A stretch of DNA of 37,624 bases from assembly GCA_902799715.1 (NCBI GenBank), contig CADCBS010000011.1, positions 1 to 37,624 on the forward strand, given 5' to 3'. Shown here piece after piece: positions 1 to 35,608 of this stretch. The notes under the pieces are model-generated. The model was given only the letters and a program-made list of their open reading frames with translations. It ran no database searches and had not been told where the DNA came from. This DNA is from an uncultured bacterium. GTDB lineage: Bacteria; Verrucomicrobiota; Kiritimatiellia; RFP12; UBA1067. The translations under genes were made by a program, and so were the position numbers. Every line of letters starts with the position of its first letter. Positions within the stretch are counted from its first letter, which is position 1.

Positions 1-70
1 CCGCTATGGCGACAATCTGCTGAATCGCCTGGTATTTCTCCCATGTCAATGGAGCAATGTCGATGGCCAT
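1..70 (-). CDS. Start of probable immunity gene for the RHS toxin (partial, runs off window)
   Basis: On the minus strand an ATG at 70-68 opens a frame that stays open to the window edge, beginning MAIDIAPLTWEKYQAIQQIV. A strong Shine-Dalgarno (AAAGGAGA) ends about 7 nt before it, inside the end of the RHS gene, and the two frames overlap by 25 nt. In polymorphic toxin loci the gene directly after the RHS toxin tip, often overlapping it, is the cognate immunity gene. That role is inferred from position alone, since only 23 residues are visible and they match no family I recognise. Confidence 0.6.
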   Translation of the reverse strand, partial: MAIDIAPLTWEKYQAIQQIVAIA

Positions 71-3000
71 CCGATCTCCTTTCCGTTTAAATACGCCCGT
101 TCAAAACCAAATGCTGAGAGTCCGCCCAACCACCCAAAATTGCTCAATGTATATTTTTTATTGCCAGAGACCATTACCCCGTGCATCTCTTTGCTGAAAC
201 CTTTCACAAAATTCTTCATTTCAGGCGTAATATACTCTTCATCATCCTCGGAAGCTGTATGACAGCCATTGAAATAAACTTTAGCTCGTCTTGACAATTT
301 CTTTTTCAAAATAGCTGATAAGTTTTCAGCATGAATTGTCTCTGAGTTTTCAGAATCATATAGCGAATAATACAACTTCAACGAATTATCATAGACAGAC
401 CATCCGAGGTACGATTTCACCGAGTCAAATGGATACATCCCAGAAAAGTTGCCATGTCCTACAAACTCGATATCAGTTACTGACTTATCTGGCAACGATG
501 CCATATAATTGATAAAAAACGCACCACTAACCCCATCAAGACAAGTATATTGACCATTATATCTTATCTTTATAGCGCCCTTCCCGCTACTCACTCCATA
601 CGCTCCAACTACATCAAACCTTTGCAGTATTTGATTGTCAACAAAAGCATAGTTGTTTAAACCCGCAATGGCACTCGCTATATCTCGCCCTATCCACCTT
701 CCATCCAGCGGATTGTAGTGGCGGTAGTTGTAATAGACCAAGCCTAAAGCATCGTCGGCGTATTCGGAAGAAAAGCGGAAGGGGTTGGATGCGGCGGAAG
801 CGCCGGACGGGGAAAGCACAGCACCGAACGGGGCGTACTCGTAATGTGCAGCAACGGTCTGGTCCGCACCGGCGATGCCGGAAACATTCTTGTTGCCGTC
901 GTGGGTGTAGTACTGTGGCGAAGCGTTAGATCGATAGAATGCGAGTGGGCGGGTGGCTACGGGTTCTGTCGGATCCCAGATGAATAGTTGCGGGTTCTGC
1001 GTCGCGAGTTCGCAGTTGGCGATCTGGAGATAACCGTCGTAAGCGAAAGCCTTGCTGGAATTTGTAGCAGAGCCGCAAGTTTCAAGATATGAGACCCGCC
1101 GGCCCATGCGGTCGAATTGCATGACTATGTTTGTCGCGCCGTCAGACCAGAGAACCGGGCGGTTCTCGCCGTTGTAGATGACAGACCAGATGCCGGTGGA
1201 TGTTTGAATCAGGGTTTGGTTGCCGTCGTCGTCATATTGAGGCATGAATTCCTCTTGCGGCGCGTTGGGGACGCCGCGCCCTACCATCGTGTATTGGTTG
1301 AGGCTGTTGGCCGCGTAGATGGAATTGACGCCGCGCCCGGACGCGACCTCGCGGTTGCCGATGTCATCGAAGCCGTATGCATAGAGATATGAAGAATCGA
1401 CAGCGGCAACTGCGTTGGTCAATTCGCTGCGGATATTGTAGCAGTAGGCGACAGAATCGTTCTGCGCGAAAGCTGTTCCTGTCTGGGAAACATTGACGCG
1501 GCGACCCATTGCATCATACGTGTAATCGTATTGCGAAATGATGTTTGCGGGGAATGCGTTGCGGACTTGAAGCAACTGGCTGTTCGCGTCGTAGGCCCAG
1601 AACGCCGTCAGCCCGTTTGGATAGGCGAGAGAGGATTTCAGGTCGGAGCCGGGGTGATATGACCACGCGAACGGTGATTCGCTGCCGTCGGCAAGCATTG
1701 TTGCGAGACGACCTGTGACAGGATCGTAAGAGAGCGTTGTCTGCCTTTGCGGCGCGTTGGGGACAACGCGCCCTGCCAAACTGTAGCCGAGGGAACGGCC
1801 GAACCCATCCCAATAGCGTATTATCGTATTAGTCCCTGTAGCACCGACGACCGTTTCATTTGTGATGGAGCCGAAGGAATCGTAGAGGAACGTCGTCACG
1901 CCTGCGGCATCGCGGGCTTCCGTTTGGCGGCCGAGAACGTCACAGACAAGAGTGATTGTCGGGGTGTTGTCCGAGTAGACGGTATTCGTCAGATTGCCCC
2001 AGCCATCGTACGAGTAGCCGGTGACGATTCCCCGCGCCCAAGTGCGCGTTGCGAGTTTGCCGTCGGGCGTGTAAGTGTATGCCGGGCCTTTGCCGTCGGC
2101 GTAGACTTTGTTTGTCAACAGACCGGTCGCTTCGTCGTAGAGCCAAGTTGTCGTGTCGCCGGACTGGAGCGACTCCGCGCGGTATGTTGTCATGTTTGTC
2201 ATGGCATTGAAACCGTCGTATGCATAACGCACTGGATATGTCGCGCCGCCTTCGTATGTCTTGTTGCCGCGGATGTCGTATCCATAGATTGTCGCGTTGC
2301 CGAGTGCGTTGGTGATTGCAACAAGATTGCCGATAGCGTCGTATGCGTATGATGTCGTCGCGCCGGGCGGATCCGTCACGGACTTGAGGCGGCCGAGCGA
2401 ATCGTACGCATTTGTCGTCGCGTTGCCGCGTCCGTCGATGCGCACGGTCTCGCGACGATAGGCATCGTATGATGCCGTATTCGTCACCGCCGAATGCGAC
2501 ACGGCGCGAACCGTCGCGCCGTCGACAGTTTCTTCGACCGCAACGTTCTCCGCCGTCGGGATGCGCGAACGGGAGATGCGCGTCGCCTTTGCCGGATCGA
2601 ACTCGCTCCACGTTTCGCTCGCGTTGCCGCGAACGTCTATCGACACCTTTCGCGATTCGTTCGCAAGCGACAAGCCAGACACCTGCGTCATGTCCGTTGC
2701 CACGAGCGGTGCGATGGAAGAATCCGAACATGAAACGGTGCGCGAGGACACGCGCCAGATTTCATTCGAGAACGGCGCGATGGGGTCATCGCGTCCTACC
2801 GCGAAATGCCAATCCGTTGCGACCGTGCGCGTTTCCGGCGGCGCGTTGGGGACAACGCGCCCTACCGAAAATGTAACATTCGTCACTTCGCCGAAACAGT
2901 CGTGCTTGCGCGTCTCCACCGGCTTGCCGGTCTCTTCTACGCGAACCAATCTCCCGAGCGCGTCATACTCCGTATCTCTGCGCATAATCGCCGGCGCATC

Positions 3001-6000
3001 TCCGAATCCCGGCCATTCCTCGCGCACGGTTTCGCCAAACCCGTTTGCGTATGTCCTCCGCCATCTTGCGCCGTCTGGCGAAAGGTAGTTCACCTGCGTC
3101 CATTCCAGTCCGTCTTCCGTCACGCCGTATGTATAGAACTCCGCCGCCTGCGCGGTTCCTGTCACGGACGCGAGCGACCCGTCGGGGTTCACCGTGGTTA
3201 TCCGCGTCGCGCCCGAGGGAAGCGTTTCGGTTGTCGTGCGGTTGTCAGCCGAATATGCGTAAACCGTCGTGCGGCCTTGCGCGTCAATCACGGAAACCAC
3301 GCGCCCTCTCGCGTCGTATGTGCGCGAGGCCGTGCGCGTCTCCACGCCGGGTGCGGATTCCGTCTCCAGCACCGCCCTGCCGCGACAGTCGCGCACATAC
3401 TCCGTCGTCACCGCGCCGAGAGGCGAATAGCGGGTAGACGAAACGAGCGACTTCGTGCCGTCGTAGACATTGGTCGCCGCTATGCCGTCCGCGCCGTTCC
3501 GCCATAGCGGACCTGTGCATATCCACGCGGCGGACGACGATTTGCCGTTCGAGTGCCGTGTCGATACGACCTGGTGCTTTGCATTGTATGTCTTGGTCTC
3601 GAACGAAAGAGAATGCCATTCTCCGCCGGCAAGCGCGAAGCGTTCCGTGCCGACTTCGTCGCCGAGGGCGTTGCGCTCCGACACCGTGCGCTCCGACTTG
3701 CCGTCGACAAGCGAAAACGCACCGCCTTCGAACACGCCCGTTTCGGAAGTTTCCGTGCAGGCTCCTGCGGGGTCGTCCGACGAATACGCCGCGCGGAGCG
3801 CAGTACCGTCTTCGGAGACGGAGAGTATCCGTCTTCCGAGGCTGTCGTACTCCGTGAAAGACGTGCGCGCAACGCCACGTACCGTCCTTGAGACAGTCGC
3901 GCGTCCGGGTTCGTATGCGTAGCGCGCGCGCTCCGTCTCCACGCCGTCGAGAAAGCGTATCATCGAGCGCGGCCTGCGGTCGGGCAGGCCGTCCGATTGC
4001 GGGTAGGACAGGAGCGTCAGCTCTTCCATTCCGCCCTTGACAGTGCGGCGGCTTGCGGCAAGCCTGCCGTATCGATCGTGGATTCTGCGGACGGCCAGCC
4101 CCGTTTCGTTCGTTTCGGCCGAGATGCGTCCTGCAGGGGAGGCGACGCTTGAATATGTCGTCTGTCCATTCGCTGTCTTGAGGACGAGCCGCGGGACGTG
4201 CCCTGCGGTGTCGTACACGTTCGTTTCGGTGGATTCCGCAGAGCCGTCGGCACGGAAATGCGTCCGGATGCGCGTCCAGGAGCGTTCAGACCCGTTCCAC
4301 CGGGTCTGGCACGACTCCCTGAGTTCATCTGCCGCGCCGGGCGCTTTTATGAACGTCCATGCGCCGCCGGCATGCTCCCAGCGGCTGACGTAGTCGCGAT
4401 TTCCGTGTTCGGTCAACGTGAACGAGCCTTGGGGGTCGAACGAGAACGCGAACGATTTCACCGGCGCGCCCGAAGGCGAACTCCACGTCACGGTGAAAGA
4501 GTCTTGCGCCGACGACACGGATAGCGTGCCGTCGGAGACCGACTGGATTTGCGATATCGCGCCCGAAGCGTCGCGGCTGACGGATATTCCAAGTTCGGAC
4601 ACCGGGATTTCGCGGCAGAACTCCGGCTTGAGGGAGACGGGAACGCCGTCCGCGCCGTATGTGACGAGCGTGCGGTCCGGGAGCTGTTCCACCAACAGCC
4701 CCGAAGAGTTCGTCGAAACGCCGCAATCGAGTCCGGACGACCAGAGGCACGGCTTTCCGCCGGAATATGCGACGGCTTCGCCGGAGGGTGTGCGTATCGT
4801 GGCATCAAGCCCCGAACGCTTTTCCACGCGCCGTTCCATCGGATGGTCGTAGAACAGGCAGGCGTGGGAGGGAAGCCTGCCGGGGAAGTTACGTTCGCGT
4901 ATGCGCAGCGTGCCGGAAGGGAGCGACGGAACGCCTGGGGTTCTGCCGAACTTCTGCGCGAAAGCGACCGACGCCACTCCGGCGCGGGAGGCGTAGTCGC
5001 ATCCGCAAGGGCAGTCGTCGTCTTCTTCGGGGTACGGCGGAGGTTCTGGAGTCAGCGCGGACCCGTCCGAGACGGTCGCTTCGCCGGAGAAATGGATTGC
5101 ATAATCGAACTTGTACGGTCCGCCGATGCTGTCCCACGAGATCGAGACGGGATGGCTTCCCCTTTCGAGGATGCCTGTGACGGCGACGCTGGAGGCGGAC
5201 GGCCAGCTCGCGGATGCGGACAGGGTCCCGACGGAAACGGTCGCGTTGTCGTCTGCGGAAACTTCGAGTATGAAATATCCCGGCGATGCGACGTTCAGGC
5301 ATGGGCCGGATGCGGCGACGGAGATTGCATTCGAGAATACCGGACTTCCGCCGGAGCAGGCCATGTCTGCGGTTCTCGCCATGCCGCCGGGGGCGGCGAC
5401 GCCATAGACGGAGAAACCGGGAGGATACGGCTCGGCTATCGACACTCTTGCGTCGAAAACCGCGCCGCAGGTGATGTTGCTTGCGAACTGCACCCCATCC
5501 GGCAGACATCCGTCCGGCAGGATTGACGAGGCGGCGGATCCCGATCCGGCATCGGGCTGTCCGCCAAGATAATCTTCAAGGTTTGAAAGTCCGTTTCCGT
5601 CGGGGTCGGAAAAGGCATCGAGCGGATTGTCCGGGCAGGAGCCGTTTGCGATCTCCCATCCGTCTGGGATTCCGTCGCAGTCGGTGTCGGCGTCGCAAGG
5701 ATCCGTGAGGGTGCAGTGCGACTCTACGGCGTCCGGGATGCCGTCGGAATCGGAATCGAAGTCTGCGGCGAACCGGAAGAATCCGGCCGGGCCGGCGTCG
5801 AAAGAGAGCGGGCGCGGACCGGCCTGCGGGAAGGAGTTGGACGCGACGGCGAACGTGAAGGCGTTCGTGCCGGGAGGGGCCTCGACCGTGCCAAGACCGG
5901 TCCACTGGCGCTCCAGAAGATTGGTGGAGAAAAGAAGATATATGTCGCGCGACTGCGCGCCGTCGAAAAACGAATCCGTCCATGAAAGGCCAAACTCCGC

Positions 6001-6354
6001 CGAACCGGCGTGACGGTCTACGGAAAACGACGTCACCGCAAGCGCGCCGGGCTGCACGCCGGATCCGCGGCGCGCAGGCGTTGCGCCCGGCGCGCGCCCT
6101 GGATCGCGGTCTCCCCCCGTGCGGTCCGTCCCCTTCGTGCCGCCCCATAGAGTGAACAGGACGACGACTGCAAGGACGGCCAGCCTGCCTGCCGGGCCGA
6201 GACGGGCGAATCGCGCGGCGCATGAGGAGAATACGCGGCTTTGGCGCAGAATTGCGGCAAGCCACAGCGCAAGCGCGAATGCCGCCGCCGCGGCGAAATA
6301 CGGGGCGGCGGCGGAGAAAGCGGCCTTGACGGCTATGGACGGTGCTTCGGTCAT
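46..6354 (-). CDS. Giant RHS/YD-repeat polymorphic toxin with clan CD peptidase-like C-terminal tip
   Basis: This 2102-residue protein starts with two hydrophobic segments (about residues 17-35 and 54-70), so it is probably membrane-anchored at its N terminus. A beta-rich region follows, then acidic DSDGIPD-type (thrombospondin-3-like, calcium-binding) repeats at about 198-260. After that come more than a thousand residues of YD/RHS repeats such as YDSLGR and YAYDAIGN, ending in the RHS core signature (YYNYRHYNPLDGRWIGRD). In known RHS proteins this shell encapsulates a variable C-terminal toxin. Here the tip (about 1915-2102) has a VGHGN motif (His1967) and an NGCHTA motif (Cys2031) after predicted beta strands, the His/Cys dyad layout of clan CD peptidases (CHAT, gingipain, caspase-like). 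The usual DPxGL pre-toxin motif is degenerate (DVVGAY). The DNA for the tip (about 46-650) is clearly AT-richer than the rest, which suggests tip exchange. The toxin class is inferred; the RHS assignment is secure. Confidence 0.93.
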   Translation of the reverse strand: MTEAPSIAVKAAFSAAAPYFAAAAAFALALWLAAILRQSRVFSSCAARFARLGPAGRLAVLAVVVLFTLWGGTKGTDRTGGDRDPGRAPGATPARRGSGVQPGALAVTSFSVDRHAGSAEFGLSWTDSFFDGAQSRDIYLLFSTNLLERQWTGLGTVEAPPGTNAFTFAVASNSFPQAGPRPLSFDAGPAGFFRFAADFDSDSDGIPDAVESHCTLTDPCDADTDCDGIPDGWEIANGSCPDNPLDAFSDPDGNGLSNLEDYLGGQPDAGSGSAASSILPDGCLPDGVQFASNITCGAVFDARVSIAEPYPPGFSVYGVAAPGGMARTADMACSGGSPVFSNAISVAASGPCLNVASPGYFILEVSADDNATVSVGTLSASASWPSASSVAVTGILERGSHPVSISWDSIGGPYKFDYAIHFSGEATVSDGSALTPEPPPYPEEDDDCPCGCDYASRAGVASVAFAQKFGRTPGVPSLPSGTLRIRERNFPGRLPSHACLFYDHPMERRVEKRSGLDATIRTPSGEAVAYSGGKPCLWSSGLDCGVSTNSSGLLVEQLPDRTLVTYGADGVPVSLKPEFCREIPVSELGISVSRDASGAISQIQSVSDGTLSVSSAQDSFTVTWSSPSGAPVKSFAFSFDPQGSFTLTEHGNRDYVSRWEHAGGAWTFIKAPGAADELRESCQTRWNGSERSWTRIRTHFRADGSAESTETNVYDTAGHVPRLVLKTANGQTTYSSVASPAGRISAETNETGLAVRRIHDRYGRLAASRRTVKGGMEELTLLSYPQSDGLPDRRPRSMIRFLDGVETERARYAYEPGRATVSRTVRGVARTSFTEYDSLGRRILSVSEDGTALRAAYSSDDPAGACTETSETGVFEGGAFSLVDGKSERTVSERNALGDEVGTERFALAGGEWHSLSFETKTYNAKHQVVSTRHSNGKSSSAAWICTGPLWRNGADGIAATNVYDGTKSLVSSTRYSPLGAVTTEYVRDCRGRAVLETESAPGVETRTASRTYDARGRVVSVIDAQGRTTVYAYSADNRTTTETLPSGATRITTVNPDGSLASVTGTAQAAEFYTYGVTEDGLEWTQVNYLSPDGARWRRTYANGFGETVREEWPGFGDAPAIMRRDTEYDALGRLVRVEETGKPVETRKHDCFGEVTNVTFSVGRVVPNAPPETRTVATDWHFAVGRDDPIAPFSNEIWRVSSRTVSCSDSSIAPLVATDMTQVSGLSLANESRKVSIDVRGNASETWSEFDPAKATRISRSRIPTAENVAVEETVDGATVRAVSHSAVTNTASYDAYRRETVRIDGRGNATTNAYDSLGRLKSVTDPPGATTSYAYDAIGNLVAITNALGNATIYGYDIRGNKTYEGGATYPVRYAYDGFNAMTNMTTYRAESLQSGDTTTWLYDEATGLLTNKVYADGKGPAYTYTPDGKLATRTWARGIVTGYSYDGWGNLTNTVYSDNTPTITLVCDVLGRQTEARDAAGVTTFLYDSFGSITNETVVGATGTNTIIRYWDGFGRSLGYSLAGRVVPNAPQRQTTLSYDPVTGRLATMLADGSESPFAWSYHPGSDLKSSLAYPNGLTAFWAYDANSQLLQVRNAFPANIISQYDYTYDAMGRRVNVSQTGTAFAQNDSVAYCYNIRSELTNAVAAVDSSYLYAYGFDDIGNREVASGRGVNSIYAANSLNQYTMVGRGVPNAPQEEFMPQYDDDGNQTLIQTSTGIWSVIYNGENRPVLWSDGATNIVMQFDRMGRRVSYLETCGSATNSSKAFAYDGYLQIANCELATQNPQLFIWDPTEPVATRPLAFYRSNASPQYYTHDGNKNVSGIAGADQTVAAHYEYAPFGAVLSPSGASAASNPFRFSSEYADDALGLVYYNYRHYNPLDGRWIGRDIASAIAGLNNYAFVDNQILQRFDVVGAYGVSSGKGAIKIRYNGQYTCLDGVSGAFFINYMASLPDKSVTDIEFVGHGNFSGMYPFDSVKSYLGWSVYDNSLKLYYSLYDSENSETIHAENLSAILKKKLSRRAKVYFNGCHTASEDDEEYITPEMKNFVKGFSKEMHGVMVSGNKKYTLSNFGWLGGLSAFGFERAYLNGKEIGWPSTLLH
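1259..1280. repeat. REP-like palindrome inside the RHS coding sequence, copy 1
   Basis: The arms are GGCGCG and CGCGCC around a GT-rich centre. The copy is followed by CTACC, as in copies 3 and 4. It is read in the RHS gene as GRGVPNAP. The inner stem is less perfect than in copies 2 and 4. Confidence 0.75.
1751..1772. repeat. REP-like palindrome inside the RHS coding sequence, copy 2
   Basis: A perfect inverted repeat, GGCGCGTTG and CAACGCGCC, with the tetraloop GGGA, followed by CTGCC. It is read in frame as GRVVPNAP within the RHS protein, interrupting the YD-repeat rhythm. Confidence 0.85.
2774..2795. repeat. REP-like palindrome inside the RHS coding sequence, diverged copy 3
   Basis: The stem is CGCGATG and CATCGCG around GGGT, extended by one G-T and one G-C pair and followed by CTACC. 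Relative to copies 2 and 4 the stem bases have changed on both sides so that pairing is kept. It encodes GRDDPIAP in the same reading frame as the other copies. Confidence 0.65.
2840..2861. repeat. REP-like palindrome inside the RHS coding sequence, copy 4
   Basis: A perfect inverted repeat identical to copy 2 (arms GGCGCGTTG and CAACGCGCC, loop GGGA), followed by CTACC. It encodes GRVVPNAP. It lies only 44 bp from copy 3, so the two are nearly in tandem. Confidence 0.85.
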
Positions 6355-6381
6355 TTCGGGAAGTGCGGAACTCTTGGGGAA

Positions 6382-6410
6382 AGACTACCACACCGCCCCG
6401 TGCCGTGCAA
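6382..6410 (-). promoter_or_regulatory. Probable promoter of the RHS gene
   Basis: Reading the minus strand, the -35 box is TTGCAC and the -10 box TAGTCT with exactly 17 nt between them, and TGG directly precedes the -10 (extended -10). The predicted start near 6375 leaves a leader of about 20 nt with no clear Shine-Dalgarno before the ATG at 6354. Confidence 0.55.
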
Positions 6411-6448
6411 GCCCGATTTCAACGTTGCCGTGCCGAAGGATGCGCTGT

Positions 6449-6538
6449 ATTTCATACGCACTGTAATCTTATTCCATCCATCCCCCGAATGGATGCCTCC
6501 CCCGAATCGGATTTCATACGCGCCGTAATCTTATTTCA
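6449..6538 (+). repeat. Two 28-bp direct repeats between RHS and fucosidase genes
   Basis: Copies at 6449-6476 and 6511-6538 start ATTTCATACGC and share GTAATCTTATT, with 25 of 28 positions identical by eye. Between them CCCCCGAAT occurs twice, and ATCCAT/ATGGAT could form a small hairpin. No gene is visible in 6355-6612 apart from the two promoters; the role of the repeats is unknown. Confidence 0.6.
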
Positions 6539-6577
6539 GGCATACCGCGGAAAGCCGCCGTTTCGGCGCGCGGCGGG

Positions 6578-6606
6578 TTGCGGCTGGCGCGGGCATGTGG
6601 TATACT
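6578..6606 (+). promoter_or_regulatory. Promoter of the fucosidase operon, predicted leaderless
   Basis: The -35 is TTGCGG, then a 17-nt spacer ending TGG, then the -10 TATACT at 6601-6606. Only 6 nt separate the -10 from the ATG at 6613, so the predicted +1 falls on or next to the start codon. Confidence 0.65.
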
Positions 6607-6612
6607 GCCCGC

Positions 6613-7959
6613 ATGAACATGAAAATAGCATTCTACGCGCTTGCGGCATGCTCGCTGGCGCTGCCATGCGCCGCCGCATCTTCCAGCCAAGGCGGCGACG
6701 CTGGAAAATACGTCCCCGAAGAGTGGAACGTCAAGGCGCGCGAGCGTTTCGTGAACGACCGCTTCGGGGTGTTCATCCACTGGGGCCTGTACGCGAACTA
6801 CGCGCAGGGCGAATGGTACCTGCTCCACGGCAGGCTTGACGAAAAGGCGTACTCGCGCATGATGTACGGCTTCTGCCCGTCGAAGTTCGACGCGCGCGAG
6901 TGGGTGCGCACCGTGAAGGCCGCCGGAGCGAAGTACATCACGATCACTTCCCGCCACCACGACGGCTTTTCGCTGTGGCCCACCAAGGCCGACGACGGCT
7001 ACAACATCGCAAACACGCCCTTCCGCCGCGACATCCTGGGCGAGCTCGCCCAGGCGTGCAGGGAAGAGGGCGTCACGCTGAACTTCTACTACTCGTTGAT
7101 GGACTGGCACCGGAAGGACTACCCGGCAGGGTTCCAGTCGAGAAAGGTGCTCGGCAGCCAGAAGGGCGACTACCGCTCGTACAAGAAGTTCATGCTCGCC
7201 CAGATAGCCGAACTGATCGAGAACTACCATCCGGCCAACATCTGGTTCGACGGCGAATGGGACCACACGCGCCACGAAAACGGCAAGTGGCTGCGCACTC
7301 TCGACTGGGAGATGGACTCCATCTACGATTTCATTCACGCAAGGCACACCCTGGTGGGCAACAACAACCACCAGACGATACGCCCCAAGGAGGATTTCCA
7401 GATATACGAGTGCGACCTTCCGGGCGGCGGCGAGAAGGTGGTGTTCTCCAAGCACCAGCCTGTCGTGAACGACCGCCCCATCGAGCAGTGCGACGTAATC
7501 CAGCACGGCGCATGGGGATACAGGATCGTCGAAGGGTTCCGCACCCCGCAGGATATCGTGGCGCTCGTGGCGCGCGCCGCTTCGCGCGACTCCAACCTCA
7601 TGATGAACGTGGGGCCCGACGGCAGCGGACAGTTCCCGGCCGGCGCCGTGAAGGCGATGCTCGAAACCGGCAAATGGTTCGCCAGGAACGGCGAATCCAT
7701 TTACGGGACCCGCGGCTGCAAGGTCGCCCGCGGGCTGGACGTGGTGTCCACGAGGCGCGGCGGAACGATCTACCTGCACTTCCTGAACCCGAAGGTCGAC
7801 GAGATTTCCTTCAACATCGAAGGCAGGATCGTCGAAGCCGTGTATCTCGACGGCGGCAAGCCTGCCGACGCCTCGGTGCAGGACGGCGTGGCGAAGGTCA
7901 GGATATCCCGCCGCCAAGGCGACCGTTTCGACGTAGTCGTGAAGGTGACGGTGGAGTGA
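6613..7959 (+). CDS. Secreted GH29 alpha-L-fucosidase
   Basis: Family GH29 enzymes remove alpha-linked L-fucose from glycans by a retaining mechanism. The protein has a signal peptide (about residues 1-21, ending CAAASS). The GH29 TIM barrel follows, with the hallmarks FGVFIHWGLYA, TSRHHDGFSLW and IWFDGEW; the Asp of WFDG (residue 213 from this start) is the expected nucleophile. A short beta-rich C-terminal part follows, typical of the family at roughly 450 residues. I chose the ATG at 6613 because the signal peptide begins there and an extended -10 promoter lies 6 nt upstream. An in-frame ATG at 6595 lies inside the spacer of that promoter. It is first in a three-gene series with the 8008 gene and the S41 protease (gaps 48 and 14 bp), which suggests periplasmic or surface processing of fucosylated material. 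Family assignment is firm; the exact substrate is not visible. Confidence 0.95.
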   Translation: MNMKIAFYALAACSLALPCAAASSSQGGDAGKYVPEEWNVKARERFVNDRFGVFIHWGLYANYAQGEWYLLHGRLDEKAYSRMMYGFCPSKFDAREWVRTVKAAGAKYITITSRHHDGFSLWPTKADDGYNIANTPFRRDILGELAQACREEGVTLNFYYSLMDWHRKDYPAGFQSRKVLGSQKGDYRSYKKFMLAQIAELIENYHPANIWFDGEWDHTRHENGKWLRTLDWEMDSIYDFIHARHTLVGNNNHQTIRPKEDFQIYECDLPGGGEKVVFSKHQPVVNDRPIEQCDVIQHGAWGYRIVEGFRTPQDIVALVARAASRDSNLMMNVGPDGSGQFPAGAVKAMLETGKWFARNGESIYGTRGCKVARGLDVVSTRRGGTIYLHFLNPKVDEISFNIEGRIVEAVYLDGGKPADASVQDGVAKVRISRRQGDRFDVVVKVTVE

Positions 7960-27764: not shown

Positions 27765-27892
27765 TTCACTTGAAAATCGCCAATTTTTCATACAAAAAGC
27801 CGAGTATGTGAGATGCGCTGCGTGTGCAAGCCACACGTGGCGTGTCTTTTATTCGTGTTTTTTGTAGGGCGTTTGGCGATGCCTCAAGTGAA
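27765..27892. repeat. Inverted repeat pair, 19/20-nt arms
   Basis: The left arm 27765-27783 (TTCACTTGAAAATCGCCAA) matches the reverse complement of the right arm 27873-27892 (TTCACTTGAGGCATCGCCAA) at about 17 positions with a one-base gap. The arms lie about 90 bp apart in a gene-free stretch, perhaps the ends of a small mobile or decayed repeat element. Confidence 0.55.
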
Positions 27893-27917
27893 ACATGGAT
27901 TTACAGGCACGCCACGT
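27835..27917. repeat. Second, interleaved inverted repeat pair
   Basis: ACGTGGCGTG at 27835-27844 and CACGCCACGT at 27908-27917 are perfect 10-bp inverted arms, and the similarity extends imperfectly by about 20 nt. The pair interleaves with the 27765-27892 pair (left, left, right, right), so the two cannot form nested hairpins together. Confidence 0.5.
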
Positions 27918-28146: not shown

Positions 28147-31100
28147 ATGTTCAAAGAAAAAGATATTGTCTGTCTGTTATCGGATCCAGCCAAAAAAGGT
28201 GTCGTGATATCTGTCTCCTGTGAAGGAGCCGATGTCCAATATTCTGTCTTTCTTGACGGAAAGATTCAAAGTTTCTTCGAAGAACAACTCCGTCCGGCTT
28301 CAGCCATCAAGACTGAGTGGGTTGATCGACAGACGTTCCAAGCATACCTCACAAGCAGCCTCATCAATACACCTTCAGCAAGGAATTTATATTCGCTGAA
28401 TGCAGCGCGCATTGATTATGTCCCATATCAATTTCGTCCGGCTTTGAAAATCCTCAAGGCGGACGAACCGCGAATCCTTATTGCAGATTCAGTTGGCGTC
28501 GGCAAAACAATAGAGGCCGGTTTGATTATAAAAGAGCTTCAGGCCCATTCAGATCTAAACCGGATTGCCATCATCTGCCCGAAGCCGCTCGTTGCAGAGA
28601 AGAAATGGGAATGCGAAATGCGGGAGCGCTTTGACGAGGAATTCGTACCTCTTGACAGTATGGCACTAAGGCAAGCACTATCTGATACCGATCGCGATGG
28701 CGAATGGCCGGCCCGCTTGTCGCGGGTAATCATTCCGTATTCGATTTTCGATGACATGACATTTGCCGGAAATATTGGGAAAGCCGGTAAAAACCGGAAA
28801 GGACGTATCTATGGATTGCAAGATGTCATTAAATTGCTCCATTTCAACCTTGTGATCGTTGACGAGGCCCACCATATCCGAAATGGCAGCGATCAAAAAG
28901 ATAAAGCATTTGCTTACAAATGTACGAAGATTTTCTGCGAGAGAGCCGACGCAGTAGTGATGCTGACAGCTACTCCGATCCAGAATTCCACACACGACCT
29001 TTATACGCTTCTCAATGTTCTTCGCCCAGACCTGATTTTCGATGAGACCACATTTGAATCGATGGGGGAACCGAATTCACATGTGTCGGCCATCTCCCGC
29101 CTTGCGCGCTCCGCGGCCAATGGATGGCGGAGGGCGGCTCTGGACGAATTGGGAAAAATCGAGGCAACCGCATGGGGGCGTGCATACTTGGTCAAAAACC
29201 CCTTGTTTGAGAAATGTCGCACCAAATTGATCCAGACAAAGGAGCTAACCCGTGATGAACGCGTACAGCTCATATCAGACATCGAGGAACTCCACAGTTT
29301 CAATTCAATCATCAACCGCACCCGTCGCCGTGACATCGAAGACTTTTGCGTTCGTGAGCCAAGAACGATTGAAATTCCTTTTACCAGATATCAGGCAAAG
29401 CTCCACGACGCAGTCCTGTCGTTCGAACGGTCGGCTTTGGCAGCCATGCATGGCGACCGTTCCGTCGCATTCATGATGTCAACAATAAAGCGACAGGCTG
29501 CAAGTTGTATCTTTGGACTGGCGCCATTCATCAAAAACATTCTGGAAAGGCGTATTGCGCAGATTGATTCGGCCGACCAAACCGCTGAAAAAACTGTTGA
29601 GCTCGGAAAAGCCGCTGTAGCCATGCTGAGAAACATGGCCGAGGAAGTGATTGCCCTGGCCGATAATCTCCCGCCGGAAGACCCCAAGTTCGATGCGGTC
29701 CTCAATGTAATCCTTGAAAAGCAGACCCACGAAAAGAACAAAATCATGCTTTTCAGTTCCTTCAAGCACACTTTGTCCTACCTTCGCGGAAAATTTAGAG
29801 AAAAAGGAATTCGCGTTGGACAGATAGATGGCGATGTGCAGGACGAAGAACGCCGTGAGCTTCGCCGCCGTTTCATGTTGCCGAAAAGCGACCCGGAGGC
29901 GTTTGACATGATGTTGTTCACTGAGGTCGGCTCCGAAGGTCTCGACTATCAGTTCTGCGACATGATGGTCAACTATGACCTTCCGTGGAATCCTATGGCT
30001 ATTGAACAGCGCATCGGGCGCATCGACCGCCGCAAACAAACTTCCGCCAAGGTGTGGATTGTAAATGTCATCACACCAGGAACGGTTGACGCCGACGTTT
30101 ACAACAGATGCCTTGCCAAACTTGGAGTGTTCACTGAATCCATAGGCGATTGCGAGGAAATTCTCGGCGAACTCGGCAACGATATCAGGACAATAGTGCT
30201 GAACGAATCGCTGACTGACGACCAGCGGCAAAAGAAACTTGAGCAGATGGCCGACAACGCTGTCCGGCTGACTCAGGCCGAGATGAAGTTGGAGGAAGAG
30301 CAAAAATCGTTCTTTGGACTTGATTTGTCGAACTTCAAAGACGCGAAGGCCATCGAAGAGGCGCAAAGCCCGTGGCTCTCTTCAGGCTGTATCCGGGGAC
30401 TCGTCTCGTATTATCTCAACAAACGGATTGCGCCAGGCACATATTTTCTCGGCACAGGACCGAAAAAGACGCTTCGACTCTCTCGCGAGGCAAAAGAAGT
30501 GCTGCTTGACGACTTGCGTTCTTCCAAACTACCAAGAACCGCAGCGTATCTGAAGTTTCAGTCGTTCCTGAAGGACATCGACCAGACATGCACTGCAACT
30601 TTCGACAGAGAGTTCGCTCAACAGGAACCGCGCTCCGTCTTTTTCACCCCTATGCATCCTTTGGTGAAAATAGCCGCTAGATATTTTGAAACGACCCGGA
30701 CAGGCGCCGAGCCATGCATCTCGTTCCGGTGTTCTCGGTGCCTTCTGCCTGATGTCCCGCCCGGCCGGTATCCATTCGCGGTATACGCTTGGAACTACAA
30801 AGGATTCACCTCGCAATTCAAGATGGTGACTATTCCCCTTGACGAAAAACTGCAAGCGAGGCTACCCAGCATAGTGCAAGGCGCGGAAGAGTTCGTGCCG
30901 TCCGAAGACGCTTCCTCCCTGTGGAAAGACATAGCGCCAATCCATGCGCAATTATGGCGCAATGCCAAAGACGCATGGATCAAGGAGACAGAAGAGCAAC
31001 TGGTGTACAAGCGCCAGTCGAGGCTTCTCAGCTTAACGCGCAAGAAGGCCGTTTTGGAGAGGAAACTCAATCTCGCCGCCGATCCGCGAGTCTTGCGCAT

Positions 31101-31230
31101 GCTTAATGTGCAGATTGCCGACGAGACGGAACGATACGAGACGAAATGCGCGCACGACAATGAAATCGCGCGGCGCGCGGATATCGTCTTCCGCAAGATT
31201 GCCAATGGCTTGATAATCGTTGAAGGGTGA
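28147..31230 (+). CDS. RapA/DrmD-like SNF2 helicase, candidate defence gene A
   Basis: The 1027-residue protein is a superfamily 2 DNA translocase. Residues 1-50 resemble a Tudor/KOW-like RapA N-terminal domain (DIVCLLSDPAKKGVV, then FLDGKIQSFFEEQL). The helicase core has motif I ADSVGVGKT (Lys120), motif II DEAHH (239-243), motif III LTATP (273-277), and in the second RecA domain SSEGLDYQ-type and IGRIDRRKQ (621-628) motifs, so it should hydrolyse ATP. A long C-terminal extension (about 700-1027) has a coiled-coil-like region and a CxxC (FRCSRC) without a known domain. The ATG at 28147 has no Shine-Dalgarno. The helicase is followed within 38 bp by the sacsin-like ATPase gene. Codon use and GC are clearly lower than in the backbone, indicating transfer. 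The role in phage defence is inferred from family and context. Confidence 0.92.
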   Translation: MFKEKDIVCLLSDPAKKGVVISVSCEGADVQYSVFLDGKIQSFFEEQLRPASAIKTEWVDRQTFQAYLTSSLINTPSARNLYSLNAARIDYVPYQFRPALKILKADEPRILIADSVGVGKTIEAGLIIKELQAHSDLNRIAIICPKPLVAEKKWECEMRERFDEEFVPLDSMALRQALSDTDRDGEWPARLSRVIIPYSIFDDMTFAGNIGKAGKNRKGRIYGLQDVIKLLHFNLVIVDEAHHIRNGSDQKDKAFAYKCTKIFCERADAVVMLTATPIQNSTHDLYTLLNVLRPDLIFDETTFESMGEPNSHVSAISRLARSAANGWRRAALDELGKIEATAWGRAYLVKNPLFEKCRTKLIQTKELTRDERVQLISDIEELHSFNSIINRTRRRDIEDFCVREPRTIEIPFTRYQAKLHDAVLSFERSALAAMHGDRSVAFMMSTIKRQAASCIFGLAPFIKNILERRIAQIDSADQTAEKTVELGKAAVAMLRNMAEEVIALADNLPPEDPKFDAVLNVILEKQTHEKNKIMLFSSFKHTLSYLRGKFREKGIRVGQIDGDVQDEERRELRRRFMLPKSDPEAFDMMLFTEVGSEGLDYQFCDMMVNYDLPWNPMAIEQRIGRIDRRKQTSAKVWIVNVITPGTVDADVYNRCLAKLGVFTESIGDCEEILGELGNDIRTIVLNESLTDDQRQKKLEQMADNAVRLTQAEMKLEEEQKSFFGLDLSNFKDAKAIEEAQSPWLSSGCIRGLVSYYLNKRIAPGTYFLGTGPKKTLRLSREAKEVLLDDLRSSKLPRTAAYLKFQSFLKDIDQTCTATFDREFAQQEPRSVFFTPMHPLVKIAARYFETTRTGAEPCISFRCSRCLLPDVPPGRYPFAVYAWNYKGFTSQFKMVTIPLDEKLQARLPSIVQGAEEFVPSEDASSLWKDIAPIHAQLWRNAKDAWIKETEEQLVYKRQSRLLSLTRKKAVLERKLNLAADPRVLRMLNVQIADETERYETKCAHDNEIARRADIVFRKIANGLIIVEG

Positions 31231-31268
31231 TGAAATTTATTCAGCAAGGATTCAGGAGGAACCGCAAA

Positions 31269-34200
31269 ATGGAAATCAATCGAGGCATAGCAGGGATACA
31301 GGAAAATAGGCGCAAGCTCTTTGTAGGGCTAGATGCAAACAAAGGATTTGAGCAAGGACTCCACGACACTGCGCAAGATCAGTATGCGGGAAATTGCCAC
31401 TTCATATACGAACTTCTACAAAATGCCGAAGACGCCGGAGCTTCGCATGTTGAATTTACGCTTGCCGAGGATTCTCTGGAGTTCCGCCACGACGGGAAGC
31501 GTCTGTTCAACCTGAATGATGTTGATTCCATAACCGGTTACCACCAATCCACAAAAGGCCAGGATTATGATGCTGTAGGCAAGTTCGGCATGGGTTTTAA
31601 ATCTGTATTCTCATGTACGCAGGCACCGGAAATACATTCTGGAGATTTCCACTTTCGCATTCGCCGGATGTTTTATCCCGATACGGAAAATGTAAGAACC
31701 GACGAGCGCTTGGATGGTTGGACAAAGTTCGTTTTCCCTTTCGATCTTCCTAAACAATCGCCAAAAGAGATATGCAATAAAGTGCGGAAAGGATTGTCGG
31801 AAATAAAGGGCGAAACACTTCTGTTCCTCAAAAAAATAAAGGAGATTGAATGCCTGTTTGACGGAGGGACGGCATATCTGCACATTGTTCGCGAGGAATG
31901 CGGGCATGTCATCAGAATCAGAATGACGGATTCTGCCCGCAGCCTTCCCGACATCTATTATCTCAAGTTTGTCCAGAATACCACTTCGCAAAGTTCTAAC
32001 ACGGGCGCTTCCGCTTCTTATGAAATAGCTGTCGCTTTTGGCCTATCGTTGCGCTCGGACGCAGATCGATCTCGGGCTGTTTCGCAGTTGAGTCCGGAAG
32101 ACTTCTCTATCAAGCCAATAGCCGGACAGGTGTTTGTGTATTTCCCAGCTGACAGAGAAGATTCGCATTTGAAGTTCCACATCAATGCTCCATTCGCCAC
32201 CCCAATGTCCAGGGAAAACCTTTCTGACACCAACGCCGGCAACGACTGGCTTCTTGGACAATTGGCTGAATTGACCGTCACCTCACTGCCGTTTCTGCGT
32301 GACAATCAGTTGCTTGATGTCGATACACTTGGCATATTCCCGACGGAAGACGATCACTTGCCTGAAAAATACAAAGTGTTTGAAAATCGTATCATAGACG
32401 CATTCATCAATCAGCCATTAACCCCTACGAAGTCCGGCGGCCACAAGCCGGCCAGGCAGCTCATCCGTTCTGAAAACAGAATGTCTGAACTTTTTTCCGA
32501 CGAGGACATGTCTGCGCTTTATCCAAGATTTCAAGCACCTGTCTGGGCCAAGGCTCCAATGAACAATTCAAGAGAACACAAGTTTTTGTCCCGGCTTCAG
32601 ATGGAGGTGTTTGGCGATGCAGAACTCAAAAAAATTGTTTCGGTTGTTGAAGAAGAACTCCCGAACAGTCGCTTAGGAAAAAAACTTACGTTGCGCAAGA
32701 ATCTATTACTTAATCTCCAGTTGGCCAATGAATATACGATTGTGAACGAGCCATTCGATATTCCACTTGCCAAATCTTTCGTTGCACTCGTCAAATCTTT
32801 CTCTGACGATAAATTACTTAGGCTGTACCGGAAATTCTCCGTTTTCGAGTTCAAGGATGAGTACGGGAGGCGAGGCACGATGCGTTTTTTGCCCGTGTTC
32901 AAGGCAAACGACGAATGCTTCTATCCGTCCGATGAATTGTATTTGATGCCAGCACTGTCAAAATGCGGCGATGTCGGCTCTGTCGTTGGCGGCGTCAAGT
33001 TTCTGAAAAAAATTTATGATAATTCGGACGAAAAGCTAATTGCTTTTTTTAGAAGGATTGGAATTTCCGACTACGCACCCGATAAATTTTTGGAAGATAT
33101 GATCGTAAGGGACGATCTGTTTCTTAAGGACCATGAATTCAATCCCGCAGACGCAGACCGTCATATTCGGAATATACAACTGTTGATTGCATCTTACAAA
33201 ACCGATCCACGATGTTTGGAGCGCTTTCAAGAATTCCTGTGGATAGGCAAGGACACGAAAGGCAATGCTAAACTATTTCCAGCCTGTGAAATCATCATTG
33301 ACGAGCCTTATGAATCTACCGGCATGCGAAATCTTTGGCCGGCATACAGCAACAAATACATGCTGTCGGAATTCTACAGGGAGATGTTGTCAGGGCAGGA
33401 ACTCCGTCTGCTAGCGGAGATTTTCCGTAAATTTGATTTTGTCCGCGACATAAAGTGGTCGTACATAGATAAGAGCGGGGATTTTTCAGTCGAAGGACAT
33501 CCCCGGCATTCAGAACTTGCTCTTCCTGCCGGACGAAAGCGGCGATATCCTTACTATTCTGATTGCGACATTGAAAACATCGACAATCTTATTAACGCGA
33601 TTAATGACGATGTTTCGAAGAGACTTTGGAAGCTGGTTTGCAGACTTAAAGAAACCGATGAAGCTTCTCGCCATCCATTTAAAGCGAAATGCCATTACAG
33701 CGATCAGTGTTCAAGAGAATCCGATTCGTTGCTTGTATGCCATTTGCAAGAAAAAGCGTGGATTAAAGATGTCAGCGGGAAATGGTGTCGGCCTGCTGAT
33801 GTCAGTTGGGAGACGCTTCACCATCAATATGAACCCCGCGAGATCTGCCCTGGACTAAACGTCATAAATTTTGGCTCAAAAACAGATAAAGCCTTGTTAC
33901 AAGACAAAACCAGCCAAATAGCTGTTTCATCCATAGCGAAAGGACTTGGATGCGACAGCTCGGAACTACGTGAAATGATAGAATTGTATTTGGAGGCGAA
34001 GAAGGGCGGTATCGATTATAGAAGTTTATTGAAAAATGAAATTCGCAAAGCGGAAATGCCTGAAGGCTGTGTGCGGAATACCGAACGCCGGCAAACACAT
34101 GTAAGAGATGATTACAGAGATGCACCACACCAGGAATATGGAATGCGACTTAGATCCGTCCGTTCAAGTGCCTGTGCCGAGATGGCACAAAGAGCGAAGG

Positions 34201-34610
34201 CTCGTCTTGAAAGGGATTATACAGATGAAGAAGGGAAAATGCGCTGTCAGTTGTGCAGACAACCGATGCCATTCAACAAACGCGATGGGAAACAATTTTT
34301 TGAATGTGTTCAAATATTGCGAAATATGGACAAGGAGACGCCAGATCAATATCTTGCCCTTTGTCCATGCTGCGCGGCCGTATACGATGAATGGATTCGT
34401 CAATACAAGGAAAACGCGGACGCTCTCTTGAATAAAATAGTTGTGCTACAAATCGCAGATGGGCAGGGTTCCGTTGCCGTTCCATTGCCTTGCCGTGGCA
34501 CGACATATTGCCCAAATTCACCTTTGCGTGGAATGGGGCTATATTTTACAGGAACACATTTCACAGATCTGCAATGCATAATAAAGGAAGCGATTAGGCA
34601 AAAACAATAA
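31269..34610 (+). CDS. Sacsin-like GHKL ATPase with C-terminal degenerate HNH/zinc module, candidate defence gene B
   Basis: The product has 1113 residues. The N-terminal 200 residues form a sacsin/HSP90-like HATPase: YELLQNAEDA (N box, Asn52), RHDGKRLF (Asp75-Gly) and GKFGMGFKSVF (104-114), so ATP binding is likely. A large central region without clear motifs follows. Near the C terminus CQLC (993-996) and LCPCC (1031-1035) frame FFECVQI, the layout of an HNH finger (CxxC ... HH ... LCPxC) in which the catalytic His-His is replaced, so zinc binding is likely but nuclease activity doubtful. I chose the ATG at 31269 because AGGAGGA lies 8 nt upstream and the GHKL domain begins soon after. An alternative start at 31230 overlaps the helicase stop and would add 13 residues. 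Probably one operon with the helicase; the pair suggests an ATP-driven DNA-sensing complex. Confidence 0.9.
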   Translation: MEINRGIAGIQENRRKLFVGLDANKGFEQGLHDTAQDQYAGNCHFIYELLQNAEDAGASHVEFTLAEDSLEFRHDGKRLFNLNDVDSITGYHQSTKGQDYDAVGKFGMGFKSVFSCTQAPEIHSGDFHFRIRRMFYPDTENVRTDERLDGWTKFVFPFDLPKQSPKEICNKVRKGLSEIKGETLLFLKKIKEIECLFDGGTAYLHIVREECGHVIRIRMTDSARSLPDIYYLKFVQNTTSQSSNTGASASYEIAVAFGLSLRSDADRSRAVSQLSPEDFSIKPIAGQVFVYFPADREDSHLKFHINAPFATPMSRENLSDTNAGNDWLLGQLAELTVTSLPFLRDNQLLDVDTLGIFPTEDDHLPEKYKVFENRIIDAFINQPLTPTKSGGHKPARQLIRSENRMSELFSDEDMSALYPRFQAPVWAKAPMNNSREHKFLSRLQMEVFGDAELKKIVSVVEEELPNSRLGKKLTLRKNLLLNLQLANEYTIVNEPFDIPLAKSFVALVKSFSDDKLLRLYRKFSVFEFKDEYGRRGTMRFLPVFKANDECFYPSDELYLMPALSKCGDVGSVVGGVKFLKKIYDNSDEKLIAFFRRIGISDYAPDKFLEDMIVRDDLFLKDHEFNPADADRHIRNIQLLIASYKTDPRCLERFQEFLWIGKDTKGNAKLFPACEIIIDEPYESTGMRNLWPAYSNKYMLSEFYREMLSGQELRLLAEIFRKFDFVRDIKWSYIDKSGDFSVEGHPRHSELALPAGRKRRYPYYSDCDIENIDNLINAINDDVSKRLWKLVCRLKETDEASRHPFKAKCHYSDQCSRESDSLLVCHLQEKAWIKDVSGKWCRPADVSWETLHHQYEPREICPGLNVINFGSKTDKALLQDKTSQIAVSSIAKGLGCDSSELREMIELYLEAKKGGIDYRSLLKNEIRKAEMPEGCVRNTERRQTHVRDDYRDAPHQEYGMRLRSVRSSACAEMAQRAKARLERDYTDEEGKMRCQLCRQPMPFNKRDGKQFFECVQILRNMDKETPDQYLALCPCCAAVYDEWIRQYKENADALLNKIVVLQIADGQGSVAVPLPCRGTTYCPNSPLRGMGLYFTGTHFTDLQCIIKEAIRQKQ

Positions 34611-34869: not shown

Positions 34870-34947
34870 ATGAACCCAACACGTAAAAAAGGAAAGGAGT
34901 CGGGAATGTCTGGAGCGGAATTGCCCGGACTCGCAAAGGTGATTTAA
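34870..34947 (+). CDS. Possible 25-residue peptide or truncated gene start
   Basis: ATG at 34870 opens a basic 25-codon frame, with a second in-frame ATG at 34906 preceded by AAGGAG at ideal spacing. The TAA at 34945-34947 overlaps the stop of the convergent VapC gene. With the regulated promoter upstream this could be a leader peptide, a small antitoxin-like peptide or the stub of a deleted gene. Very short frames arise by chance, so this is weak. Confidence 0.25.
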   Translation: MNPTRKKGKESGMSGAELPGLAKVI

Positions 34948-35354
34948 GGTGTGATGATGTTGAGTGACGGAAAGAGTGCGCGAAAGTCATCTGCATTGCG
35001 GGTGATGAGTCCGTCGTTGGCCTGTGCGAGCGCGCCAATCATCACGTCGGCGACGGGACGGCGCGCGGTCTTGCCAGATTGCTTGCGCTGGATGTGGTCG
35101 TTCCATGCGGCATGCGCAAGCGAAAGGTCGTCCTCGCCGAATTCCGGCGGAAGGTCGATTCCGATTTCAAAGAGGAAATCGCGTTCGCGCGTTTCGTCGC
35201 CGAGAAAGGCGGGCGAAAGCTCCACGTACGTGAGCGGCGAGATGACGAGCCCGCCTTCGGCATACTTCTCAAGCACTTCGGCTGATGCGAGGCCAAAGGT
35301 TGGGTCTTGCTCAAGTACGTCAAGAATGACGCAGGTGTCGACGACCATGCTCAC
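34944..35354 (-). CDS. vapC: VapC-type PIN-domain ribonuclease toxin
   Basis: PIN-domain toxins cleave RNA, often tRNA or rRNA. The 136-residue protein has the family acidic residues: Asp in MVVDTCVILDVL near the N terminus, Glu in TYVEL, Asp in ADVMIGALA and Asp in TRNADDF. The GTG at 35354 overlaps the antitoxin stop by 4 nt (GTGA); an ATG at 35348 is the alternative start. It follows the AbrB-fold antitoxin gene in the usual antitoxin-first order. A typical accessory-island passenger, possibly stabilising the island. Confidence 0.88.
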   Translation of the reverse strand: MSMVVDTCVILDVLEQDPTFGLASAEVLEKYAEGGLVISPLTYVELSPAFLGDETRERDFLFEIGIDLPPEFGEDDLSLAHAAWNDHIQRKQSGKTARRPVADVMIGALAQANDGLITRNADDFRALFPSLNIITP

Positions 35355-35608
35355 GGGCGTTCCCCATCGCGAAGTTCATCCATCCACTCGGCGGTCGTGC
35401 GCGGCTTGCGGAAGGTGGACGCATAGCCGAGCATGGCCATTGCGCCTTTGCGTGCGCGCTTGCGGACAATCGTTACCACGCATGTGTAACGATCTTGTCC
35501 ACAATTCCACAATAGCGTCGTTCCCGGCGTCATCTGCATGGATTCGCGGATTGATGCCGGGATTGAAACTTGACCGCGCTCGGTCACTTTAGTCACCAAA
35601 GTTTTCAT
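35351..35608 (-). CDS. vapB: VapB-type AbrB/SpoVT-fold antitoxin
   Basis: The 85-residue protein has the swapped-hairpin AbrB N-terminal pattern (TKVTERGQVSIPASIRESM, residues 6-24) that binds DNA. Its C-terminal half (about 50-85), rich in Arg and then acidic, would wrap the toxin. The start codon lies 7 nt after a consensus -10 box, so its mRNA is probably leaderless. It is translationally coupled to the toxin gene. Confidence 0.88.
   Translation of the reverse strand: MKTLVTKVTERGQVSIPASIRESMQMTPGTTLLWNCGQDRYTCVVTIVRKRARKGAMAMLGYASTFRKPRTTAEWMDELRDGERP

Follow-up and report, generated by a model that had tools for sequence, protein, structure and literature searches.

A RapA-type SNF2 motor and a sacsin-type GHKL ATPase form a conserved gene pair with a putative anti-invader role: a HEPN-less copy in an uncultured Kiritimatiellia bacterium

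We analyzed a stretch of 37,624 nucleotides (hereafter the window; GCA_902799715.1, contig CADCBS010000011.1) from an uncultured bacterium of the Kiritimatiellia, in which two adjacent genes code for a SNF2/RapA-type translocase and a sacsin-type GHKL ATPase. The two almost certainly constitute a fixed two-gene module, and to judge from its neighbors in other genomes the pair likely has an anti-invader role. On balance, we read the locus as a HEPN-less version of a two-gene module that acts against invaders, is widespread and spreads horizontally, and would combine a RapA-type motor with a sacsin/GHKL clamp. The fixed pairing, the domains and their conservation, the defence context, the purifying selection and the partner exchange described below all come from sequence comparison.

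Results

Both genes lie on the plus strand. The translocase gene (28147..31230) encodes a HEPN-less protein of 1027 aa in an open and intact reading frame, and the ATPase gene (31269..34610) encodes 1113 aa when read from the ATG at 31269. This ATG is the best start of an intact ORF (31227-34610) with two alternative in-frame starts, a GTG at 31227 and an ATG at 31230, and a Shine-Dalgarno motif AGGAGG, read from the sequence, stands ahead of it at 31254..31259 on the same strand. The 38 bp between the stop codon of the motor gene and the ATPase gene, given in the initial annotation for two real ORFs, hold for that start. GC content is 43-52% across 28.0-35.0 kb compared with 57-70% in both flanks, bearing out the AT-richer island claimed before. 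The adjoining toxin-antitoxin pair was likewise recovered: a PIN protein gene (34947-35354) downstream of the ATPase gene and a MazE/AbrB-type partner gene (35354-35608), both on the minus strand, form a TA-like pair. PADLOC models gave zero matches to the 37 other ORFs of the window, in agreement with the earlier statement that DISARM drmA/B/C and a BREX methylase are absent. By this search of the window ORFs, the PIN/MazE-type pair is the sole possible defence neighbor of this copy, and the remaining genes have ordinary metabolic and carbohydrate functions.

Relatives become syntenic with the window again precisely at the start codon of hisG (35899); everything upstream of this position differs, as would fit a variable site in front of hisG. 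An empty site before hisG was sought among the relatives and none was found, nor were convincing flanking repeats found at the island ends. A scan with Rfam for RNA elements returned one tRNA above thresholds and nothing else. Ahead of the helicase gene lies a 20-nt inverted repeat (27835-27917, 80% complementary) with no Rfam match. The left end of the window carries a gene for a large RHS-repeat protein (46-6354), and GC content goes down to 46% in the first kilobase.

The motor matches the Pfam families SNF2-rel_dom (9.6e-18) and Helicase_C (1.4e-22), and Foldseek matches its AlphaFold model (mean pLDDT 79.8) to RapA from end to end (E 5.5e-31); alignments for structure prediction were made without plasmid-derived rows. 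The protein begins at a beta domain (28165..28296, plus strand, residues 7-50) that was delimited by modelled beta strands and by alignment with HEPN-bearing relatives. We call this domain Tudor-like by analogy, a name borrowed from the RapA/BrxHII parallel (PMC12839542). Most relatives carry about 170 extra residues at this end, including a HEPN domain. Walker, DEAH and GHKL motifs had been described as intact, and indeed each of them is there and mostly invariant across the family. On the motor, these are the Walker A motif GVGKT (28495..28509, residues 117-121), the DEAH box (28861..28872, residues 239-242; D239, E240 and H242 invariant, A241 nearly so) and helicase motif VI QRIGRIDR (30007..30030, residues 621-628), all on the plus strand, with Walker A and motif VI invariant in a 44-row alignment.

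The ATPase scores over the cut-off of the NCBIfam model NF047352 (2.7e-24) and matches Pfam SACS (5.8e-14), and its family profile matches the solved SR1 of sacsin at 2.3e-23 to 3.1e-24. Sacsin is known as a human ataxia protein. Fold matches were to Hsp90, sacsin and MutL, MORC4 being merely a distant one. Two GHKL motifs are encoded on the plus strand: the N-box ELLQNAED (31410..31433; E47, Q50, N51, A52 and D54 invariant, the others nearly so) and the G2 box GKFGMGFKS (31578..31604; G103, G106, G108, F109 and K110 invariant). The protein ends in a McrA-like HNH zinc domain (34164..34450, plus strand, limits approximate) with cysteines 992, 995, 1031 and 1034 (codons 34245-34373). This assignment rests on the family profile, which matches residues 191-285 of EcoKMcrA (6ghc), its HNH region, at E 1.8e-7, because the window sequence by itself matches McrA weakly (E 0.088). 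The zinc ligands are kept in 67/67 scored relatives, the fourth being a histidine in 8, and the catalytic histidines are absent in 66 of these 67. The window protein has all four zinc cysteines and carries V, Q and A at three of the catalytic histidine positions, which rules out an active McrA-type HNH nuclease. Since the zinc ligands are kept and the catalytic histidines are missing, the C-terminal region is best read as a zinc module rather than a nuclease, and this module presumably binds DNA. The initial annotation had found no nuclease at the locus. Functionally this is correct; structurally it is not, because the ATPase C-terminus is a McrA-like HNH fold minus its catalytic histidines. 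In a longer ATPase variant of about 1570 aa (L036:13049-17767), the same Cys4 end is preceded by two GHKL-like modules in a sacsin-like tandem, and length suggests the same arrangement for the ATPases of L034, L037, L041, L046, L062 and L107.

How regularly the two genes occur together was assessed with a helicase-alignment scan of 84,980 species genomes, from which the best 80 loci (all at least 41% identical) were taken; plasmid, class and viral loci were then included, and 85 loci could be evaluated downstream. The ATPase gene comes next downstream on the same strand in 83 of these 85, within 60 bp in 73. Of the two exceptions, one lies on a contig that runs for just 681 bp more, and the other, on a viral contig, has a fragment of the ATPase in inverted orientation. 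Because the best 80 loci were taken, this figure holds for helicases of the window clade, not for all SNF2 proteins; about 30 viral loci with helicases 23-35% identical have no ATPase gene downstream. In the plasmid collection, the best full-length helicase matches (39-41%) are the paired ones. Hosts of the pair belong to about 20 phyla and comprise isolates and MAGs, plasmids including an archaeal one, and viral contigs. Within the class of the window organism the pair is sporadic: 8/346 genomes match the motor at E <= 1e-100, and two of these matches (L180, L181) are distant, unpaired DrmD-like helicases.

Dozens of species share full-length homologues of both proteins in the same gene order, which disfavors a chance pairing. 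The window copy conforms to this module, having a RapA-type SNF2 gene followed on the same strand by a sacsin-type ATPase gene with a Cys4 McrA-like end. Conserved adjacency, independent of any other fixed gene, had been proposed as a check on the two-gene unit, and homologues that always lie with further genes had been named as the outcome against it. Neighbors change from locus to locus and the pair persists; the constant unit is therefore the pair, and that outcome did not occur. The reverse link is looser: the viral contig L154 has a Cys4 ATPase without a motor, and other sacsin-type ATPases sit in other contexts, such as a GmrSD fusion in L021. The latter gene (L021:5975-10159), from the window's own family, joins a sacsin-type ATPase to GmrSD_N and DUF7834, a further gene overlaps its end, and it is a candidate for another restriction system. 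At L179:3983-5104 a gene for a YhcG/DUF1016 PD-(D/E)XK nuclease lies between the motor and ATPase genes. In the Rhizobiales loci L015, L016 and L017 (about 6200-6760) an extra gene of 176-184 aa overlaps the helicase start; its product is sigma-factor-like by eye and has no Pfam match in those scanned.

Recurrence beside known defence systems, also suggested before, was observed. Gene clusters around the pair include PDC-S68, type I and type III R-M, PglX and PglZ (pglX/pglZ in relatives L057, L058, L059 and L061), and single neighbors match AbiE, Hachiman, CBASS, Mokosh- and Azaca-type models. Thus, relatives of the pair recur with genes of BREX, type I/III R-M, AbiE, Hachiman and CBASS, an association by neighbors and not an enrichment statistic; it is tempered by the fact that genes more than 5 kb from the pair are likewise rich in defence models. 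PDC-S68, a RecD-like protein of about 1230 aa, is found near the pair in ten loci (L045, L047, L048, L054, L058, L059, L066, L092, L093 and L111), mostly two genes past the helicase, and may be an optional third component.

These neighborhoods also bear on a different explanation, in which the pair is an accessory of R-M or BREX and aids a resident system, either as a motor with a looping ATPase that extends restriction or by acting when restriction fails. Type III Mod/Res, type I R-M or PglX/PglZ directly adjoin the pair in many loci. What keeps the accessory explanation alive is the closest relative, L177, a HEPN-less and paired copy from the same taxonomic family (57% identity for the motor, 47% for the ATPase), where the base right behind the ATPase gene is the first of a type III methylase gene (Mod), with a ResIII gene after it (L177:8344-12000). 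Type III Mod is also found near the pair in L028, L045, L047, L048, L070, L089 and L109, and GHKL ATPases with SF2 helicases have been predicted as R-M subunits (PMC2292703). However, no R-M type is constant, and a recognised defence family is present in 24/91 loci, a lower bound taken from gene clusters only. In addition, PADLOC found no R-M or BREX genes among the 37 other ORFs of the window, so that this copy would have to partner R-M elsewhere in the genome or be orphaned, and the HEPN domain on most relatives suggests that the pair has an output of its own. We regard an accessory function as unlikely, albeit one to be taken seriously.

A Swt1-type HEPN domain is fused to the helicase N-terminus in relatives (Pfam HEPN_Swt1, 4.2e-17 and 7.2e-9). 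It is found on 66/87 complete helicases and retains the R-N-x-x-x-H motif in 60 of these 66. The other 21, namely the window copy and 20 more, are HEPN-less and spread over several clades. We detected no HEPN domain in the window motor protein, no remnants of it in the DNA upstream of the motor gene and no HEPN_Swt1 match elsewhere in the genome (assembly about 90% complete). A HEPN domain split off as a separate upstream gene was also considered for the HEPN-less loci and rejected, as no ORF matches and the small upstream genes look unrelated. Because a quick tree of the motors places the window motor inside a clade (support 96) whose members mostly carry HEPN, the simplest reading is that the window copy is a HEPN-less subtype that probably lost its RNase domain.

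Such a loss could mean decay, with the locus a functionless remnant of a HEPN module that was left without its toxin and is retained by chance. The absence of HEPN from gene and genome fits this, as do the long branches of the window proteins in the trees. On the contrary, about 2,100 codons are open, motor and ATPase retain intact catalytic motifs, and HEPN-less helicases recur across clades. L177 is HEPN-less as well, and codon differences between it and the window at positions 1/2/3 are 0.35/0.24/0.63 for the motor and 0.41/0.30/0.66 for the ATPase. Third-position differences thus far exceed second-position ones, from which we infer that both genes are kept and the HEPN-less form is maintained. 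Decay is therefore improbable, and the window copy is best read as an RNase-less variant maintained by purifying selection.

Pairwise distances of motor and ATPase are correlated (r 0.66; permutation maximum 0.11). The window motor groups with Bacillota-type motors and the window ATPase with another group, and forcing the two trees to agree was rejected either way (AU p below 1e-60); the same conflict is seen in L057 and in the L056/L068/L086 group. Because the trees conflict, an exchange of ATPase partners between motor lineages is credible; it falls short of proof because the conflicting groups were named after the trees were seen and the trees are quick searches with long branches. The ATPase also diverges much faster, with about 20-30% identity to the window protein compared with 40-50% for the motor. 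Faster divergence is expected of a sensing subunit, so a sensing role of the ATPase would fit.

The full-length structural match of the motor to RapA and the Hsp90/sacsin fold of its partner would also suit a housekeeping function, namely the recycling of RNA polymerase by the motor, helped by a chaperone. Against this stand the sporadic distribution, the location next to defence genes, on plasmids and in viral contigs, the HEPN fusion in relatives and the rapid divergence of the partner ATPase, and we consider a housekeeping role very improbable.

Discussion

Several features of this module are already published: the theme of GHKL, SWI2/SNF2 and HNH (PMC2292703), the Swt1-HEPN/SNF2 fusion (PMC3710099) and the RapA layout (PMC12839542). 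Iyer et al. (2008; PMC2292703) predicted that GHKL ATPases of the MORC/paraMORC type together with SF2 helicases act as restriction systems, and proposed a looping role. The pair described here resembles those systems in its GHKL ATPase, its SWI2/SNF2 helicase, the HNH theme and the occurrence in defence operons. However, they comprise MORC/paraMORC families with separate nucleases and methylases, and sacsin goes unmentioned there, whereas the window-type pair has a sacsin-type ATPase that ends in a dead HNH domain, a fixed set of two genes and a HEPN domain on most motors. The best sequence matches of the window ATPase are sacsin, and it is set apart from MORC/paraMORC by descriptions, not by family models.

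Anantharaman et al. (2013; PMC3710099) listed a Swt1-type HEPN fused to a SWI2/SNF2 ATPase (WQE_15321) as a table entry and also described HEPN-DUF499 systems, which are now named Hma/BR (PMC12839542). As in our family, a HEPN RNase is there linked to an SNF2 motor and found in defence loci, and the entry of 2013 may include a motor of the SNF2/sacsin family. We found no report of a sacsin partner for this fusion in the literature that could be searched. In DUF499/BR systems the HEPN sits on the AAA ATPase and a methylase is a core component, while in the window family it sits on the SNF2 motor. BrxHII and the BR helicases have a RapA layout (PMC12839542), and BrxHII of BREX type 3 and RapA share the whole-length RapA-type architecture of the window motor. 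BrxHII, however, works as a single subunit within a methylation system of several genes, whereas the window motor belongs to a gene pair; the window has no PglZ, BrxC or PglX, and BREX membership was rejected.

The motor's best PADLOC model is that of DISARM DrmD, an SNF2-like helicase (332 bits, compared with 199 bits for BrxHI/BrxHII), and the ATPase has a sacsin-type N-terminal ATPase in common with Tiamat TmtA. The best TmtA match, 180 bits, joins ATPase residues 39-436 of 1127 to positions 58-450 of 1486 and is thus confined to the N-terminal 400 residues; one weaker TmtA model (122 bits) spans residues 61-866. The C-terminus and the fixed SNF2 partner differ from Tiamat, and membership was rejected since the match fails to cover most of the window ATPase. 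DISARM membership was rejected as well, the motor reaching 270.7 bits on the DrmD equivalog with its cut-off of 610, and drmA, drmB, drmC and a methylase being absent from the window, where the contig ends. That the locus is a DISARM fragment beside an unrelated Tiamat-type protein, as the top PADLOC models could imply, is hardly credible given these partial scores, a pairing fixed across phyla and a window free of other PADLOC proteins.

As a pair, the sacsin-SNF2 genes are not described in PADLOC 2023, NCBIfam 2026 or the full-text literature, of which the search covered a minority of subscription papers and preprints and did not extend to DefenseFinder. Within this range the claim of an undescribed system was upheld, no named system corresponding to it, and the pair is apparently a widespread two-gene surveillance module that is undescribed as such.

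How might the module work? The fast-evolving ATPase could act as sensor and clamp, and its dead HNH domain would hold DNA, possibly recognizing a modification or a phage nucleoprotein. GHKL dimerization may then license the motor, which as a RapA-type double-strand DNA translocase is expected to move on DNA. In HEPN-bearing relatives, the motor would release the N-terminal HEPN RNase, so that translation stops and infection becomes abortive. For the HEPN-less copies of the window and L177, we envisage ATP-driven clamping and translocation on invader DNA, by which clamp and motor would block or strip polymerases or replication proteins of the invader, or feed its DNA to resident nucleases. Mechanical interference is the option we favor, and help to resident nucleases or R-M ranks next. 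That the window copy acts as motor plus clamp without a nuclease of its own is plausible, although we hold it to be somewhat less likely than not. The earlier proposal of a self-contained system in which one of the two proteins is the effector was not supported for this copy: the usual HEPN effector, the sole catalytic effector domain observed among family members, is missing and the HNH domain of the ATPase is catalytically dead. Its self-sufficiency is unproven because the L177 pair sits directly before type III Mod/Res. More tentative still is the wider view that the HEPN-less subtype defends by mechanical means alone and uses no nuclease, methylase or RNase, that the ATPase is an exchangeable specificity subunit, and that the sacsin/HEPN partnership in humans traces to such modules.

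If the module is defensive, a common gene pair is at present split in catalogues into a "DrmD-like helicase" and a "Tiamat-like protein," and it would offer a compact two-protein system in which to study how a GHKL clamp and an SNF2 motor together detect foreign DNA. Its natural HEPN-plus and HEPN-less versions would be a ready contrast for protection by motor activity alone. Human sacsin joins a sacsin-type ATPase with a HEPN domain in one protein (PMC3710099), whereas in the bacterial relatives, which share the ATPase family, the HEPN sits on the partner motor and is lost in the window copy. A defensive module would thus be a case from bacteria of sacsin-type ATPases acting jointly with HEPN domains, and would bear on the unexplained HEPN of human sacsin.
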